A stretch of DNA of 48,318 bases from Marinitenerispora sediminis (GTDB taxonomy: Bacteria; Actinomycetota; Actinomycetes; Streptosporangiales; Streptosporangiaceae): positions 1 through 48,318 of the forward strand of contig NZ_QEIO01000029.1 of NCBI RefSeq assembly GCF_003336425.1. The letters are read 5' to 3'. The notes beneath the pieces are model-generated. The model did not search any database and was not told where the DNA came from. It worked only from the letters and a program-made list of their open reading frames with translations. This document shows positions 7,133 through 13,498 of the stretch, in pieces. A program made the translations under genes and the position numbers. Positions within the stretch are counted from its first letter, which is position 1. Every line of letters begins with the position of its first letter.

Positions 7133-8707
7133 GTGCCACCGGTAATGCGACCTGACCAGAACCAGCTCCGTCCGCTGTCCGGCCTCGCCCAGCTCCTGGG
7201 CGCGGCCCCCACGTCCGGGGACGCCCCGGACACGGTGGAAGGGGAGTCCCGCCCCGTCACGGAGACGACGATCACCGGGATCACCCACGACTCCCGTGCG
7301 GTGCGGCCCGGGGACCTCTACGCGGCGCTGCCCGGAGCCAGAGCGCACGGCGCCGAGTTCGCCGCCCAGGCCGCGGCCGCCGGAGCGGTGGCGATCCTCA
7401 CCGACCCCGCCGGCGCCGACCGCGCCGCCGCGACCGGGCTTCCGGTGCTCGCGGTGCCCGCCCCGCGCGCCCGCCTCGGCGAGGTGGCCGCCTGGGTCTA
7501 CGGCCATCCGGGCGAGGACCTGCTGCTGATCGGCACCACCGGAACCAGCGGCAAGACCAGCGTCAGCTACCTGGTGGAGTCCGGCCTGCGGGCCGCCGGG
7601 CTGCGCACAGGGCTGATCGGCACCGTCGAGATCCGGATCGGCGACGAGCGCGTCGACTCCGCGCTCACCACGCCGGAGGCCACCGAGCTGCACGGCCTGT
7701 TCGCCGTCATGCGCGAGCGGGGCGTCGACGCCGCGGCCATGGAGGTGTCGAGCCACGCCCTGGCCCTGGGCCGGGTCGGCGGCGCGAGATTCGACGTCGC
7801 CGTCTTCACCAACCTCTCGCAGGACCACCTGGACTTCCACGCGGACCTGCGCGACTACTTCGACACCAAGGCCCGGCTGTTCACCCCGGAACTCGCCCGG
7901 GTGGCGGTGGTCAACCGCGACGACCGGTTCGGCCGCGCGCTCGTCGACATGGTCGCGGCGCGCGGCGAGATCCCGGTGACCACGTTCTCCGCCGAGGGCG
8001 ACCCCGAGGCCGACTGGCGCGCCGTGGACGTCGAACTGGGCCCCGAGGGCAGCGTGTTCCGGGTGGTCGGCCCCGGCGGGCTGGAGGTCGACGCCGCCGT
8101 GCGGCTGCCCGGCCCCTTCAACGTCTCCAACGCGCTGGCGGCGATCGTCGGACTCGTCGAGGGCGGCGTCCCGCTGGAGGCCGCGCTGCGCGGCGTGGCC
8201 GCCGCCGCGGGCGTCCCCGGCCGGATGGAGCGGGTCGACGAGGGCCAGAACTTCACCGCCCTCGTCGACTACTCTCACAAACCCGGCGCGGTGGAGGCGG
8301 TCCTCGGATCCCTGCGGACGGTGACCGAGGGGCGGCTGACCATCGTCCTGGGCTGCGGGGGCGACCGCGACCGCGCCAAGCGCCCGCTGATGGGTGAGGT
8401 CGCCGCACGGCTCGCCGACGCGGTCATCCTCACCGACGACAACCCGCGCAGTGAGGATTCCATCACGATCATCACCAGCATGCTGGACGGGGTGGCGAAG
8501 GTGCCGGCGGGGGAGCGGGCCCGGGTGACCGTGGAGCCGGACCGCGCAGCCGCCATCGAGATGGCCGTGGAGCGCGCCAAGCCGGGCGACGTGGTGGTCG
8601 TGGCCGGCAAGGGGCACGAGCGCGGCCAGTACGTGGGCGACCGCGTGCTGCCGTTCGACGACCGCGAGGTGCTGCGTGATGCGCTGCGATGGCGCGTCGG
8701 CGGCTGA
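7133..8707 (+). CDS. murE: UDP-MurNAc-L-Ala-D-Glu:meso-DAP ligase MurE
   Basis: MurE adds the third amino acid to the UDP-MurNAc dipeptide, using ATP. The product has 524 residues in the three-domain Mur ligase layout: an N-terminal UMP-binding domain with the DSRAVRPGDLYAALPG motif near residue 49, the P-loop GTTGTSGKTS near 134, and a C-terminal domain carrying DNPR near 436. DNPR is the motif known to select meso-diaminopimelate. GTG 7133 is taken as start; ATG 7145 is an alternative. Neither has a ribosome binding site, so the mRNA may be leaderless. A minisatellite begins nine bases after the stop codon, where murF would normally follow directly. Confidence 0.96.
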   Translation: MPPVMRPDQNQLRPLSGLAQLLGAAPTSGDAPDTVEGESRPVTETTITGITHDSRAVRPGDLYAALPGARAHGAEFAAQAAAAGAVAILTDPAGADRAAATGLPVLAVPAPRARLGEVAAWVYGHPGEDLLLIGTTGTSGKTSVSYLVESGLRAAGLRTGLIGTVEIRIGDERVDSALTTPEATELHGLFAVMRERGVDAAAMEVSSHALALGRVGGARFDVAVFTNLSQDHLDFHADLRDYFDTKARLFTPELARVAVVNRDDRFGRALVDMVAARGEIPVTTFSAEGDPEADWRAVDVELGPEGSVFRVVGPGGLEVDAAVRLPGPFNVSNALAAIVGLVEGGVPLEAALRGVAAAAGVPGRMERVDEGQNFTALVDYSHKPGAVEAVLGSLRTVTEGRLTIVLGCGGDRDRAKRPLMGEVAARLADAVILTDDNPRSEDSITIITSMLDGVAKVPAGERARVTVEPDRAAAIEMAVERAKPGDVVVVAGKGHERGQYVGDRVLPFDDREVLRDALRWRVGG

Positions 8708-8715
8708 GCCCCGGG

Positions 8716-9019
8716 GTCCAGCCGGAGCGGCTGCGGAGCGGGGTCCAGCCCGAGCGGCTGCGGAGCGGGAAGACTGTCCGAGCGGCTGCGGAGCGGGGTC
8801 CAGCCCGAGCGGCTGCGGAGCGGGAAGACTGTCCGAGCGGCTGCGGAGCGGGAAATCCCTCCGAGTGGCTGCGGAGCGGGGTCCAGCCCGAGCGGCTGCG
8901 GAGCGGGAAATCCGTCCGAGCGGCTGCGGAGCGGGAAATCCGTCCGAGCGGCTGCGGAGCGGGAAATCCGTCCGAGCGGCTGCGGAGCGGGAAGACTGTC
9001 CGAGCGGCTGCGGAGCGGG
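8716..9019 (+). repeat. Minisatellite, 11 copies, between murE and murF
   Basis: Eleven copies of the 18-base core GAGCGGCTGCGGAGCGGG (one with a C-to-T change) start at 8725, 8752, 8780, 8807, 8835, 8863, 8890, 8918, 8946, 8974 and 9002. They are separated by three spacer types: GTCCAGCCC (9), AAGACTGTCC (10) and AAATCCGTCC (10), plus one variant (AAATCCCTCC). Periods are therefore 27 or 28 bases. A 55-base block (GTCCAGCCC-core-AAGACTGTCC-core) is itself duplicated at 8743-8797 and 8798-8852. The array is non-coding on the plus strand and lies wholly in the murE-murF gap. Confidence 0.97.
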
Positions 9020-9430
9020 AGACCCGCGCCCGTGCCGTGCTGCGCCGCCCCGTTCGGATCGTGATCGTGCTGTGAACACGGCGGCGGAACCGGGCGCCGC
9101 GGCCCGCGGCGGACAGCCACGGCCCCGTCCGGTCCCGGCGTCCGCCGCCGCACCCACCTGCGGGTTCGTCCGTACCGGGCGGAGGAGGCCGTGGCGGGGC
9201 CGACCGGGCGGTGCCGCTCGGGGGCGGGAGGCCCCGTCGGGTGTTTCGGCTGGGACGCAACCCCGATAACCAAACATGTTCTAAGGTAGGTCCGGCAATT
9301 GCAGCCCGGCACCGTGGCGTCACCCGCCGCCTTGCGGCTCTTGTGCAGCGAATCCCCATACACAGCACGCTGTCTCGTCGTCGAGGCGCCCCGAAGGCGC
9401 GGTGGACCGGGCCCGACATGAGGAGTGGAT
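9020..9430 (+). promoter_or_regulatory. murF upstream region with a weak promoter candidate
   Basis: About 410 bases without a convincing gene follow the repeat array. An AT-richer island at 9261-9300 holds the 8-base palindrome AACATGTT (9273-9280) and a -10-like TAAGGT (9282-9287), but no good -35. It may let murF be transcribed independently of the repeats. Confidence 0.35.
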
Positions 9431-10843
9431 TTGATCGCGCTGACGCTCGATCGGATCGCTGAGATCACCCAATCCCGCATACACGGATCGGCGCGCCCCG
9501 CGGACGTCGTCACCGGTCCGGTCGTGATCGACTCGCGACAGGCTGTCCCGGGAGCGCTCTTCGTGGCGTTGGGTGGCGAGCGGGTCGATGGACATGACTT
9601 CGCCGACGCCGCCGTCGCGGCCGGCGCCGCCGCCGTGCTGGGATCCCGGCCGCTGGCGGCGCCGCAGCTGCTGGTCGACGGCGGCGACGCCGAGGTCGTG
9701 GCCGCGCTCGGGCGCCTGGCGCGGGCCGTCGTCGGCGAACTGCCGCAGGCCGACATCGTGGGCGTCACCGGATCGTCGGGCAAGACGACCACGAAGGACC
9801 TGCTCGCCCAAGTGCTGCGCCGCCTCGGCCCGACGGTCGCGCCCGCCGGCTCGTTCAACAACGAGATCGGCCACCCGCTGACCGTGCTGCGCGCCGACGA
9901 GCACACCCGCTACGTCGTCCTGGAGGTCGCCGCCCGCGGACTGGGGCACATCGCGCACCTGTGCCGGATCGCCCCGCCCCGGATCGGCGTCGTGCTCAAC
10001 GTGGGCAGCGCGCACGTCGGCGAGTTCGGCAGCCGCGCGGCCATCGCCCAGGCCAAGGGAGAGCTCGTCGAGGCGCTGCCCGGCGCCGACGCCGGCGGTG
10101 TGGCGGTCCTGAACGTCGACGACGACGCCGTCATCGGCATGGCGGCGCGTACCGCCGCGCGGGTCGTCGGCTACGGGCTCGGCGAGCGCGCCGACGTGCG
10201 CGGCCGCGACGTCCGGCTCGGCGAGGACGGCCGCGCCGCGTTCACGCTGCAGATCGGCGCGCGATCGGCGCCGGTGCGCCTCGCGCTCGTCGGTGAGCAC
10301 CAGGTCCACAACGCGCTGGCGGTGGCCGCCGTCGCGGCCGAGCTCGGCATGGACCTCGACGACATCGCCGCCGCGCTGGGCGAGGCGGGAGCGGTGAGCC
10401 GCTGGCGTATGGAGGTCGCCGAGGGCCCCGGCGGCGTGACCGTCGTGAACGACGCCTACAACGCCAACCCGGAGTCCATGGGTGCGGCGCTGCGCACGCT
10501 CGCCGCGCTGGCCCGGGCCCGGCGCTCGGTGGCGGTCCTGGGAATCATGGCCGAGCTGGGCCCGGCGCACCAGGTGGAGCACGAGCGCCTCGGGCGGCTG
10601 GTCGCCGAGTCGGGGGTCGACTGCCTCATCGCCGTGGGTGAGGAGGCCGCGCCCATCGTGGATGGCGTGCGGAGTGTGGCCGGGTGGCACGGCGAGGTCC
10701 GGCAGGTGGCCGACACCGCGCAGGCGGTCGCGGCCCTGCGCGGGCTGCTGCGGCCGGAAGACGTTGTCTTGGTGAAGGGATCACGAGTGGCCGGGCTGGA
10801 ACAGGTAGCCGAGCAGCTGACCGCCGAGGAGGCCGCCAAGTGA
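9431..10843 (+). CDS. murF: UDP-MurNAc-tripeptide:D-Ala-D-Ala ligase MurF
   Basis: MurF adds the D-Ala-D-Ala dipeptide, completing the cytoplasmic pentapeptide precursor. The product has 470 residues and shows DSRQAVPGALFVALGGERVD near residue 35, the P-loop GVTGSSGKTTTKD near 111, NNEIGHPLTVL, and NDAYNANPESM in the C-terminal domain. I chose TTG 9431 because AGGAG (9421-9425) is five bases upstream and the product begins with the family-typical MIALTLDRIAEIT. The GTG at 9425 would overlap its own ribosome binding site. The stop overlaps the mraY GTG (GTGA), implying translational coupling. Confidence 0.95.
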   Translation: MIALTLDRIAEITQSRIHGSARPADVVTGPVVIDSRQAVPGALFVALGGERVDGHDFADAAVAAGAAAVLGSRPLAAPQLLVDGGDAEVVAALGRLARAVVGELPQADIVGVTGSSGKTTTKDLLAQVLRRLGPTVAPAGSFNNEIGHPLTVLRADEHTRYVVLEVAARGLGHIAHLCRIAPPRIGVVLNVGSAHVGEFGSRAAIAQAKGELVEALPGADAGGVAVLNVDDDAVIGMAARTAARVVGYGLGERADVRGRDVRLGEDGRAAFTLQIGARSAPVRLALVGEHQVHNALAVAAVAAELGMDLDDIAAALGEAGAVSRWRMEVAEGPGGVTVVNDAYNANPESMGAALRTLAALARARRSVAVLGIMAELGPAHQVEHERLGRLVAESGVDCLIAVGEEAAPIVDGVRSVAGWHGEVRQVADTAQAVAALRGLLRPEDVVLVKGSRVAGLEQVAEQLTAEEAAK

Positions 10844-11895
10844 CCGGCATTCTCGTCGCCGCGGCGCTCTCCCTCCTGGTGTCGCTGCTCATCATGCCGA
10901 TGGTGATCCGGATGCTGTACCGGTTCAAGTTCGGCCAGGAGATCCGGGACGACGGTCCCGAGGGCCACAAGAGCAAGCAGGGCACGCCCACGATGGGCGG
11001 CATCGTCATCATCCTCGGCGCGGTGATCGGCTACTTCGGTGCCCACCTGGCGTCGATGACCCGGCCCACCGTGTCCGGTCTGCTGGTGATGTTCCTGTTC
11101 GTGGGGCTCGGCGCGGTCGGCTTCCTCGACGACTTCATCAAGATCTACAAGCGGCGCAGCCTCGGCCTGCGCAGCGGCGCGAAGATGCTCGGGCAGGCGA
11201 TCGTCGGTATCGGGTTCGCCGTGGGCGTCACGTTCTTCCCGAACAACTACACCTACACCCCCGGCTCCCCGCACCTGTCCTTCCTCCGGGACTTCGGTCC
11301 GGCGCTGGCGCTACCGGTGTTCGCGATCTGGGCGCTCTTCCTGATCGTCGGCTTCTCCAACGCGGTGAACCTCACCGACGGCCTGGACGGCCTGGCCACC
11401 GGCGCCACCATCCTGTCGCTGGTCGCCTACGTCATCATCGGCAACTGGCAGCTGCGGCAGAGCTGCGTCAACGCGCTGGAGGCCAACTGCTACACCGTCC
11501 GCGACCCGCTCGACCTCGCGGTGGTCGCGGCGGCCGGGCTCGGCGGCTGCATCGGGTTCCTCTGGTACAACGCGCCGCCGGCCAAGATCTTCATGGGTGA
11601 CACCGGCTCGCTGGCCCTGGGCGGCCTGATCGTCGGTCTCGCCATCACCACCCGCACCCAGCTGCTGCTGCTCATCATCGGCGGCCTGTTCGTGCTCATC
11701 ACGCTCTCGGTCATGCTGCAGATCGGCTCCTTCCGGCTCACCGGGAAGCGCATCTTCCGCATGGCGCCGCTGCAGCACCACTTCGAGCTGAAGGGCTGGG
11801 CCGAGAGTACGATCGTGATCAGGTTCTGGATCATCCAGGGGCTGTTCGTCGGTGTCGGTATCGGCCTGTTCTACCTGGAATGGATGCCGAGGTAA
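10840..11895 (+). CDS. mraY: Phospho-MurNAc-pentapeptide transferase MraY
   Basis: MraY transfers phospho-MurNAc-pentapeptide from UDP to undecaprenyl phosphate, making lipid I in the membrane. The 351-residue product has about ten membrane helices and the family motifs GHKSKQGTPTMGG, the Asp pair in FLDDFIKIYKRRSLGL, VNLTDGLDGLATG, FMGDTGSLALGG and the C-terminal QHHFELKGW. The GTG at 10840 overlaps the murF stop by four bases and has GAGGAGG at 10826-10832. Longer upstream frames are shadows of murF. The murD ATG follows the stop after four bases. Confidence 0.96.
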   Translation: MTGILVAAALSLLVSLLIMPMVIRMLYRFKFGQEIRDDGPEGHKSKQGTPTMGGIVIILGAVIGYFGAHLASMTRPTVSGLLVMFLFVGLGAVGFLDDFIKIYKRRSLGLRSGAKMLGQAIVGIGFAVGVTFFPNNYTYTPGSPHLSFLRDFGPALALPVFAIWALFLIVGFSNAVNLTDGLDGLATGATILSLVAYVIIGNWQLRQSCVNALEANCYTVRDPLDLAVVAAAGLGGCIGFLWYNAPPAKIFMGDTGSLALGGLIVGLAITTRTQLLLLIIGGLFVLITLSVMLQIGSFRLTGKRIFRMAPLQHHFELKGWAESTIVIRFWIIQGLFVGVGIGLFYLEWMPR

Positions 11896-11899
11896 CCCC

Positions 11900-13498
11900 A
11901 TGGCGGAGATGCCAGCCGGAGCGGCTGCGGAGCGGGGTCCAGCCCGAGCGGCTGCGGAGCGGGAAGAGCTCCGAGCGGCTGCGGAGCGGGAAGAGCTCCG
12001 AGCGGCTGCGGAGCGGGAAGAGCTCCGAGCGGCTGCGGAGCGGGAAGAGCTCCGAACGGCCGCGGAGCGGGCTTTCGCCGCCGCGCTCGCCGGGCGGGCA
12101 GTCTGCGTCACCGGGCTCGGTGTGTCCGGGCCGCCCGTCGCCCGGGCGCTGCTCGACCGGGGGGCCCGCGTCACGGTCATCGACGGCCGGACCGACGAGG
12201 CCACCCGGGAGCGGGCCGAGCGGCTGCGGCACCTCGGCGCGCGGGTGCTGCTCGGCGCCGAGGCGCTCCCCGAGGGCACCGACCTCGTCGTGACCTCCCC
12301 CGGCTGGCGGCCGGACGCCGTCCCGCTGGTCCAGGCCGCCCGCGCCGGTGTCGAGGTCATCGGCGACGTGGAACTCGCGTGGCGGCTCCGGCCGGCCGGG
12401 CAGACCTGGCTCGCCGTCACCGGGACCAACGGCAAGACCACCACGGTGCGGATGCTGGAGGCCATGCTGCGCGCCGACGGCCGGTCCGCCCGCGCGGTCG
12501 GCAACGTGGGCACCCCCGTGGTCGAGGCGGTGTCGCCCGGCCCGGGGGAGGCGGCCGCCGACGTCCTCGCGGTGGAGCTGTCCAGCTTCCAGCTGCACTG
12601 GTCGAACTCGCTGCGGCCGCACGCCGCGACGGTGCTGAACGTGGCTCCGGACCACCTCGACTGGCACGGTGGCCTGGACGCCTACGCCGCGGCCAAGGGC
12701 CGGGTCTACGCGCCCGGCACCGTCCGGGTGGTGAACGCGGCCGACCCGCTGTCGGGGCGGCTGGCGGACCGGGCCGACGAGGCGGACGCCGCGGCTGGCG
12801 CCGCCGCGGCCCGGCGGGTCGCCTTCACGCTGGACACCCCGCGGCCGGGCGAGCTCGGCGTGGTCGAGGACCTGCTGGTGGACCGCGCCTTCGTGGCCGA
12901 CCCCGCGAGTACGGCCGAGGAGCTCGCCACCCTCGCCGACGTCCGGCCGGCCGCGCCGCACAACGTGGCCAACGCGCTGGCCGCCGCGGCGCTGGCCCGT
13001 TCCGTCGGAGTCGCCCCCGCGTCGGTGCGCGCCGGCCTGGCCGCGTTCGCGCCCGAACCGCACCGCATCTCCCCGGTGGCCACCGTCGCCGGCGTCCACT
13101 ACGTCGACGACTCCAAGGCCACCAACCCGCACGCCGCCGCGGCGTCGCTGTCGGCCTACCCGTCGATCGTGTGGGTGGCCGGCGGCCTGCTCAAGGGCGC
13201 CGACGTCGAGGACCTCGTGGCCGCGGCGGCGCCCCGGCTGCGCGGGGCGGTGCTGCTCGGCGCCGACCGCGACCGCCTGCGCGCCGCCCTGGACCGGCAC
13301 GCGCCCGCGCTGCCGGTCGTGGAGGTGGCGCGCTCCGACAGCGGCGCCATGGCCGAGACCGTGGCCGCCGCCGCGGAACTGGCGCGGCCCGGCGACACGG
13401 TGCTGCTCGCCCCTGCGGCCGCGTCGATGGACATGTTCACCGACTACAACGCCCGGGGCGACGCCTTCGCCGCGGCCGTGCGCGCACTCCGCGGCTGA
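11900..13498 (+). CDS. murD: UDP-MurNAc-L-Ala:D-Glu ligase MurD with repeat-encoded N-terminal extension
   Basis: MurD adds D-glutamate to UDP-MurNAc-L-Ala. The catalytic part is complete: the N-terminal Rossmann segment VCVTGLGVSGPPVARALLDR from about residue 69, the P-loop VTGTNGKTTT near 173, the segment LNVAPDHLDWHG and the C-terminal VDDSKATNPHAA. The protein has 532 residues, about 50 more than usual. The excess is residues 7-57, in which six copies of a minisatellite encode AAAER units, four of them preceded by EELR. The ATG at 11900 is set by GAGGTAA at the mraY stop. No ATG, GTG or TTG occurs in frame between the repeats and the first beta strand, so the repeats must be translated. 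The reading frame is intact. Confidence 0.94.
   Translation: MAEMPAGAAAERGPARAAAEREELRAAAEREELRAAAEREELRAAAEREELRTAAERAFAAALAGRAVCVTGLGVSGPPVARALLDRGARVTVIDGRTDEATRERAERLRHLGARVLLGAEALPEGTDLVVTSPGWRPDAVPLVQAARAGVEVIGDVELAWRLRPAGQTWLAVTGTNGKTTTVRMLEAMLRADGRSARAVGNVGTPVVEAVSPGPGEAAADVLAVELSSFQLHWSNSLRPHAATVLNVAPDHLDWHGGLDAYAAAKGRVYAPGTVRVVNAADPLSGRLADRADEADAAAGAAAARRVAFTLDTPRPGELGVVEDLLVDRAFVADPASTAEELATLADVRPAAPHNVANALAAAALARSVGVAPASVRAGLAAFAPEPHRISPVATVAGVHYVDDSKATNPHAAAASLSAYPSIVWVAGGLLKGADVEDLVAAAAPRLRGAVLLGADRDRLRAALDRHAPALPVVEVARSDSGAMAETVAAAAELARPGDTVLLAPAAASMDMFTDYNARGDAFAAAVRALRG
11919..12071 (+). repeat. Minisatellite, 6 in-frame copies, inside 5' end of murD
   Basis: Copies of the same 18-base core as in the murE-murF gap start at 11919, 11946, 11973, 12000, 12027 and 12054 (the last has two changes). 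Spacers are GTCCAGCCC once and AAGAGCTCC four times. Every period is exactly 27 bases, which keeps the murD frame. The AAGAGCTCC units form a 6-bp hairpin (GCTCCG/CGGAGC, 8-base loop). Bases 11912-11967 are identical to 8718-8773. Confidence 0.97.

Follow-up and report, generated by a model that had tools for sequence, protein, structure and literature searches.

The repeat behind the murD start codon of Marinitenerispora sediminis is probably one member of a dispersed minisatellite family kept in frame in genes

MurD is an essential enzyme, and in Marinitenerispora sediminis its gene opens with a tandem repeat that lies in the reading frame. This raises the question of whether the array is an adaptation of MurD or a repeat that has come to lie in the gene by another route. 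We analysed a window of 48,318 nucleotides (contig NZ_QEIO01000029.1 of assembly GCF_003336425.1), in which murD has murE, murF and mraY as its neighbours, and followed the repeat through the genome and its relatives. The features with coordinates are collected in Table 1.

Table 1. Features of the murD start region and repeat arrays with coordinates (positions with no locus handle are those of the window).
Feature	Position	Strand	Remarks
GAGGTAACCCC	11889..11899	+	End of mraY including its stop, and probable ribosome site of murD (placed by eye)
murD (UDP-N-acetylmuramoyl-L-alanine--D-glutamate ligase)	11900..13498	+	532 aa, array included; match to TIGR01087 (E 9e-112) starts at residue 68; Pfam MurD-like_N, Mur_ligase_M, Mur_ligase_C
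Intragenic murD array	11912..12071	+	CCAGCCG left end, then six 18-base cores, period 27
murD segment predicted as one helix (residues 13-63)	11936..12088	+	Encoded almost wholly by the array; AlphaFold2, block pLDDT 66-93 for residues 11-60
Second array of the same family	8718..9019	+	11 cores (largest); murE-murF spacer (0.7 kb); spacers of 9 or 10 bases, mixed 27/28 period
Sensor kinase array	L031:5161-5259		Four units; HATPase_c loop that follows the NLVDNA motif; kinase with sCache_3_2 and PAS
ACT-acetyltransferase array	L038:5510-5608		Coding strand, between domains
Formylglycine-generating enzyme array	L039:5453-5551		Four units between two conserved blocks, just before segment RGGSYLCHDSYC; FGE-sulfatase E 2e-80

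The murD ATG (11900-11902) lies 4 bases past the mraY stop codon TAA (11893-11895), and a GAGG at 11889-11892 is spaced 7 bases from it. Six copies of an 18-base core had been claimed in an earlier note, made from the letters of the window, to stand right behind this ATG, and this is what we find: the core GAGCGGCTGCGGAGCGGG begins in codon 7 and recurs over 11919-12071, five times exactly and the last time with two mismatches, with a step of 27 bases kept all five times and 9-base spacers of two kinds (GTCCAGCCC once, AAGAGCTCC four times). TRF assigned to the array a period of 27, 5.7 copies and 94% matches. A minisatellite, or VNTR, consists of head-to-tail units of about 10-60 bases, and the head-to-tail 27-base units place the array in that class. 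The window as a whole holds 17 cores, six of them in murD and 11 at 8725-9019, against 0.10 expected from 100 shuffles.

Each unit adds nine residues, as the same note had proposed. The frame gives AAAERGPAR, then AAAEREELR four times, and the start of MurD reads MAEMPAG-AAAERGPAR-AAAEREELR (four times)-TAAER-AFAAALAGRA-VCVTGLG. From the mraY stop to VCVTGLG, the first Rossmann strand, in-frame ATG, GTG or TTG codons occur at two places only, 64 and 67 residues ahead of the strand, which puts both before the array; the claim that none occurs between repeat and strand is thus borne out, and for this reason MurD would have to be translated through the array. Judged from the gene itself, such translation is well supported, since no usual start lies downstream, the frame is kept in all steps and the Mur ligase motifs are intact. 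Past the array the protein is a normal MurD: NCBIfam model TIGR01087 scores 374 bits against a cut-off of 212, its match and that of Pfam MurD-like_N both start at residue 68, and TGTNGKTT aligns together with the other invariant columns of the ligase.

The N-terminus was compared among the best 30 loci (own included) from the 249 of 250 family genomes (own included) that matched at E <= 0.001. Before the Rossmann strand MurD carries 67 residues here versus 12-36, median 19, in the 29 relatives, for each of which the longest possible N-terminus was taken. The nearest relative, G023, whose MurD is 82% identical outside the N-terminus, has 15; the excess of 52 agrees with six units (54 residues) and with the earlier estimate that some 50 extra residues are the repeat. 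No extension of the length of the array was seen in these 29 relatives, nor in the 7 relatives of the MurD alignment described below, and the array occupies a segment that varies in length among relatives anyway. In two relatives of one genus (L102, L110), 153-157 bases separate the mraY stop from the MurD strand, longer than in the other 27. The genome G060 has the same MurD N-terminus as Marinactinospora thermotolerans (L093 and L077), so that the family compared is probably that to which Marinactinospora belongs.

An extra N-terminal helix had also been postulated, with structure prediction as a check. AlphaFold2 was run with an 8-sequence MurD alignment, 7 of whose MurDs were extracted from 14 homologous loci, and predicts one helix from residue 13 to residue 63 (mean pLDDT of the model 73.5). 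This predicted helix precedes the MurD fold, and the best PDB match of the model is 3lk7. Helix formation is what one expects of a sequence made up of alanine, glutamate and arginine, so the prediction says little on function. The segment could grow in nine-residue steps on an essential ligase, and such growth would be easy to assay.

The genome (6.01 Mb, 441 contigs) holds 41 exact cores, against none for the reversed-pattern control; with at most two mismatches, 81 cores are found versus 13 for the control. Together with the two arrays of the window, the 16 stretches taken around the clearest sites give 15 arrays of at least two units, single units with the usual left end at L036 and L046, and one doubtful single unit at L045; the leftover two-mismatch sites may be chance, given the 13 of the control, and an assembly in 441 contigs may misstate array copy numbers. 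Arrays lie on both strands, and their surroundings are unrelated between loci. The unit measures 27 or 28 bases, typically (G)TCCAGCC[CG]-GAGCGGCTGCGGAGCGGG at the left end: CCAGCC opens 11 of the 15 arrays and TCAGCC a twelfth, with L041, L043 and L044 having neither. The 18-base core is strictly conserved, the spacers vary between loci, and at each listed site the units run head to tail. L044 is the weakest array, made of two units, one with 3 mismatches and the other with 1.

The earlier note had treated the repeat as a feature of MurD, having missed both the 11-core array and the genome-wide family, and in this form its account is not supported. Of the 15 arrays built from these units ten lie between genes, and the units also appear in other proteins and are read in a second coding frame. 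The murD array is therefore more readily seen as one of the places where a dispersed minisatellite has landed than as an adaptation of MurD.

The family appears confined to this lineage. The searches of relatives brought up no second genome of the genus. The exact core is absent from the 40 relatives searched, and the exact two-unit pattern was found in 0 of 249 other family genomes and in no stretch of a wider collection of genome contigs, from which our own record was possibly excluded. When up to three mismatches were allowed, a 24-base pattern matched 46 times here (control 5), and none of 119 other family genomes had more than 4 matches. Compared by BLAST with the 250 family genomes, the array had a match in every one at E <= 10, the best outside its own genome being G258 (4.3e-9, 78% identity), followed by G230 (3.6e-8). 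An origin from a plasmid or a phage was considered and rejected, one array having been searched in each collection with no match: the murD array (11908-12071) against 72,556 plasmid records and the stretch 8715-9022 against 50,697 phage records, both at E 1e-5 with the BLAST low-complexity filter on. In the literature we recognised no report of this 27-base dispersed repeat, which is not proof of absence.

Outside genes, the ten intergenic arrays run along the flanking genes in four cases and against them in five, and one lies between divergent genes. By our own crude gene calls, which use a codon-usage score trained on the window, eight of the ten have a called gene edge within 16-44 bases. 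In the largest array, which lies 3 kb upstream of the murD array, the first core stands 18 bases past the murE stop. The array at L034:5329-5400 lies just upstream of a gene for a penicillin-binding protein (MecA_N, transpeptidase); an open frame runs through it, and it may be coding in antisense.

Within genes, four arrays lie in frame on the coding strand, in murD, in a sensor kinase, in an ACT-acetyltransferase and in a formylglycine-generating enzyme, at the N-terminus, in loops or between domains. A fifth, the weaker array L044, runs antisense through the C-terminus of an ABC permease gene. For the three internal coding arrays, alignment with homologues reveals empty sites. For the kinase, the nearest relative aligns on both sides of the array and lacks 36 amino acids, or 108 bases, which is 4 x 27; the array is also missing in the 14 other homologues aligned, after a filter had dropped 5 of 19 loci, namely this nearest relative and four with two matched blocks 30-42 bases apart. 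In the formylglycine-generating enzyme, the matched blocks are 44 residues apart versus 8 in the solved enzyme 6muj, a net difference of 36 in which the local alignment ends are approximate; the RGGSYLCHDSYC segment that follows we take to have a role in the active site. For the ACT-acetyltransferase, the nearest relative lacks 37 amino acids between the domains, and four more distant homologues align poorly there (5 of 7 homologue loci aligned; L165 and L167 left out). At this last site, the one compared at DNA level, no target duplication is evident.

Arrays in genes differ from those between genes in how they keep frame. In each of the 4 coding arrays every step is a multiple of three, as is the case in 2 of 10 intergenic ones (Fisher P = 0.015), and with the antisense L044 included the comparison is 5 of 5 versus 2 of 10 (P = 0.007); at the level of arrays the test is small (14 arrays) and rests on the crude gene calls. 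Counted by step, 14 of 14 are in frame in coding arrays versus 10 of 34 in intergenic ones (P = 4e-6), where steps within an array are not independent. The L034 array was counted as intergenic despite its open frame, a choice that works against the test. The units encode AAAERxxxR in three coding arrays and SGCGAGxxP in the kinase, and an antisense peptide in the permease. What the coding arrays have in common is a kept host frame, more than one peptide, and the peptide itself is probably a by-product, because two coding frames are in use. None of the six frames of the common units contains a stop codon, so that an in-frame landing is possible on either strand; this openness was dropped as a special property, 9,382 of 20,000 shuffled 27-mers being equally open.

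In all likelihood, the murD array is a member of a lineage-specific dispersed minisatellite family, kept in genes where it is in frame and probably near-neutral there. Its dispersal and the empty sites in other genera suggest that the unit is mobile. No transposase could be tied to it, and a Y1 transposase was not found in the genome. Arrays would then grow locally, most simply by slippage or unequal recombination; landings in genes that were out of frame or harmful would be lost, and those in loops and at termini would stay, their host proteins probably carrying a neutral or nearly neutral insert. In murD, insertion just behind the start codon would have produced a charged segment, predicted as a 51-residue helix before the Rossmann domain. 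Three of the four coding-strand arrays share the frame AAAERxxxR, which would fit a measure of selection for a soluble helix. A dispersed minisatellite entering genes in frame is the larger finding behind the murD array.

A bolder form of this reading, which we advance tentatively and think less probable than not, is that the 27-base unit is still active as an element without a recognisable transposase, reaching new loci, amplifying in place and adding nine-residue units to conserved enzymes. If true, in-frame insertion experiments would be continuing in MurD, the sensor kinase and the formylglycine-generating enzyme within one cell lineage.

It is unlikely, in our judgement, that the helix is a selected part of MurD, docking on partners of the Mur pathway or tuning the amount of enzyme with copy number as the dial. 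Several observations would suit this: a single helix is predicted, a second array lies within the same gene cluster, one frame is common to three of the four coding-strand arrays, and the 5' end of the RNA folds strongly by unit-to-unit pairing, 201 nucleotides from 11885 reaching -116.8 kcal/mol (z = -3.0) with 0 of 200 shuffles as good. The hairpins that the earlier note saw here stand in part, as pairing between neighbouring units is better than chance (two adjacent units, -23.3 kcal/mol, z -2.2, 4 of 200 shuffles as good), but within a single unit it is no better than in shuffles. Against a role in MurD weigh the occurrence of these units in unrelated proteins and at ten intergenic sites in both orientations, their use of a second coding frame, and the fact that none of the 29 + 7 relatives compared has an extension that long. 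As the main reading, a MurD-specific adaptation was rejected once the genome-wide family had been found.

The core could instead be a DNA or RNA signal, such as a protein-binding site, an attenuator or a terminator, with the coding copies accidental. Strict conservation of the core amid spacers that differ by locus would fit such a signal, as would the closeness of called gene edges to intergenic arrays, but these arrays show no orientation bias to genes, the genome has about 17 sites in 6.0 Mb, and the relatives have no arrays. Single units, moreover, fold no better than shuffles, and Rfam finds no family at gathering score in 8600-12200, where 3 matches up to E 1 all lie far below their gathering scores. 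We consider this improbable.

Mobilisation of the REP type, in which the unit would be a REP-like hairpin copied by a RAYT transposase, seems very improbable. The unit shares with REPs a short length, imperfect palindromy and dispersal, and REPs, too, can be tandem; REP/REPIN sequences are described as very short dispersed palindromic repeats that sometimes stand in tandem (PMC3116915). REPs are extragenic and tied to RAYTs. Here, by comparison, some copies are intragenic and units run head to tail instead of in inverted doublets, with no listed site having units on both strands. RAYT mobilisation was rejected on the lack of a Y1 transposase: no Y1_Tnp (PF01797) match was found in the genome, the assembly of which has gaps, by a search that was positive in 5 of 14 control genomes. 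An assembly artefact, by false expansion or chimeric joins at repeats, is hardly credible, for the 441 contigs and an array close to a contig end (C144:73-117) would allow it, but the coding arrays keep frame, both flanks continue the same conserved protein and the spacers are locus-specific.

The preferred reading, a dispersed minisatellite kept in frame, can be set beside known systems. In actinobacterial genomes, dispersed tandem repeats are familiar as the MIRU-VNTR loci of mycobacteria, and intragenic minisatellites are also known; compared with both, the unit here is smaller and the in-frame insertions in the interior of enzymes are clear. The small dispersed repeats (SDR) of Nostoc are, like the unit here, very small and dispersed. 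In-frame dispersed repeats in genes have been described from Rickettsia, Wolbachia and one archaeon (PMC2996958). The Rickettsia palindromic elements and Wolbachia repeats lie in frame in conserved genes as well as between genes, typically within unstructured segments, and are regarded as neutral or slightly harmful; the Rickettsia elements are described as sitting in housekeeping proteins (PMC2229807, PMC10969869, PMC2996958). The arrays share with the Rickettsia elements an in-frame position inside several conserved genes, on the coding strand in four cases and antisense in one, as well as their effect on proteins, but they do not belong to them: those elements measure 105-150 bases and have long stem-loops and terminal inverted repeats, whereas here 27-28-base units form tandem arrays of 2-11 and single-unit hairpins are not above shuffles.

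Two intragenic MITEs with open frames, the Correia element of Neisseria (107 bases) and ERIC/RU-1 of enterobacteria (127 bases), have been found fused in frame within genes (PMC2229807). Both exceed 100 bases, occur singly and have terminal inverted repeats, whereas the units here are tandem and of 27 bases. PARCELs and REPINs are further away than the Rickettsia elements and the MITEs. PARCELs are described as tandem repeats with dyad symmetry and amphipathic coding that are shuffled within genomes, a 25-residue motif in ORFs without assigned function in disparate clades (PMC2996958), whereas the repeat here has a 9-residue period and two different coding frames, lies in known enzymes of one lineage and is also intergenic. 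The present family adds a GC-rich actinobacterium with a much smaller tandem unit, which lies in four conserved proteins and in ten spacers and for which homologues show empty sites. It amounts to a natural experiment on which parts of a protein tolerate repeated additions, and on the way a unit of 27 bases can spread without a recognisable transposase.

The 9- and 10-base spacers bear on how the arrays grew. With L032, L044 and the single units left out, spacers are identical in 26 of 86 pairs from one locus versus 16 of 949 pairs from different loci, and the only ones common to different loci are GTCCAGCCC, of the left-end type, and TGGAGGTCC, shared by L038 and L039. This likeness fits local duplication plus occasional copying between loci. 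The presence of the exact spacer TGGAGGTCC in two unrelated genes may point to whole units having been copied from one locus to another. Homogenisation within a single locus is indicated at L035:4861-4934, where the three units share one core variant (TGTGG).
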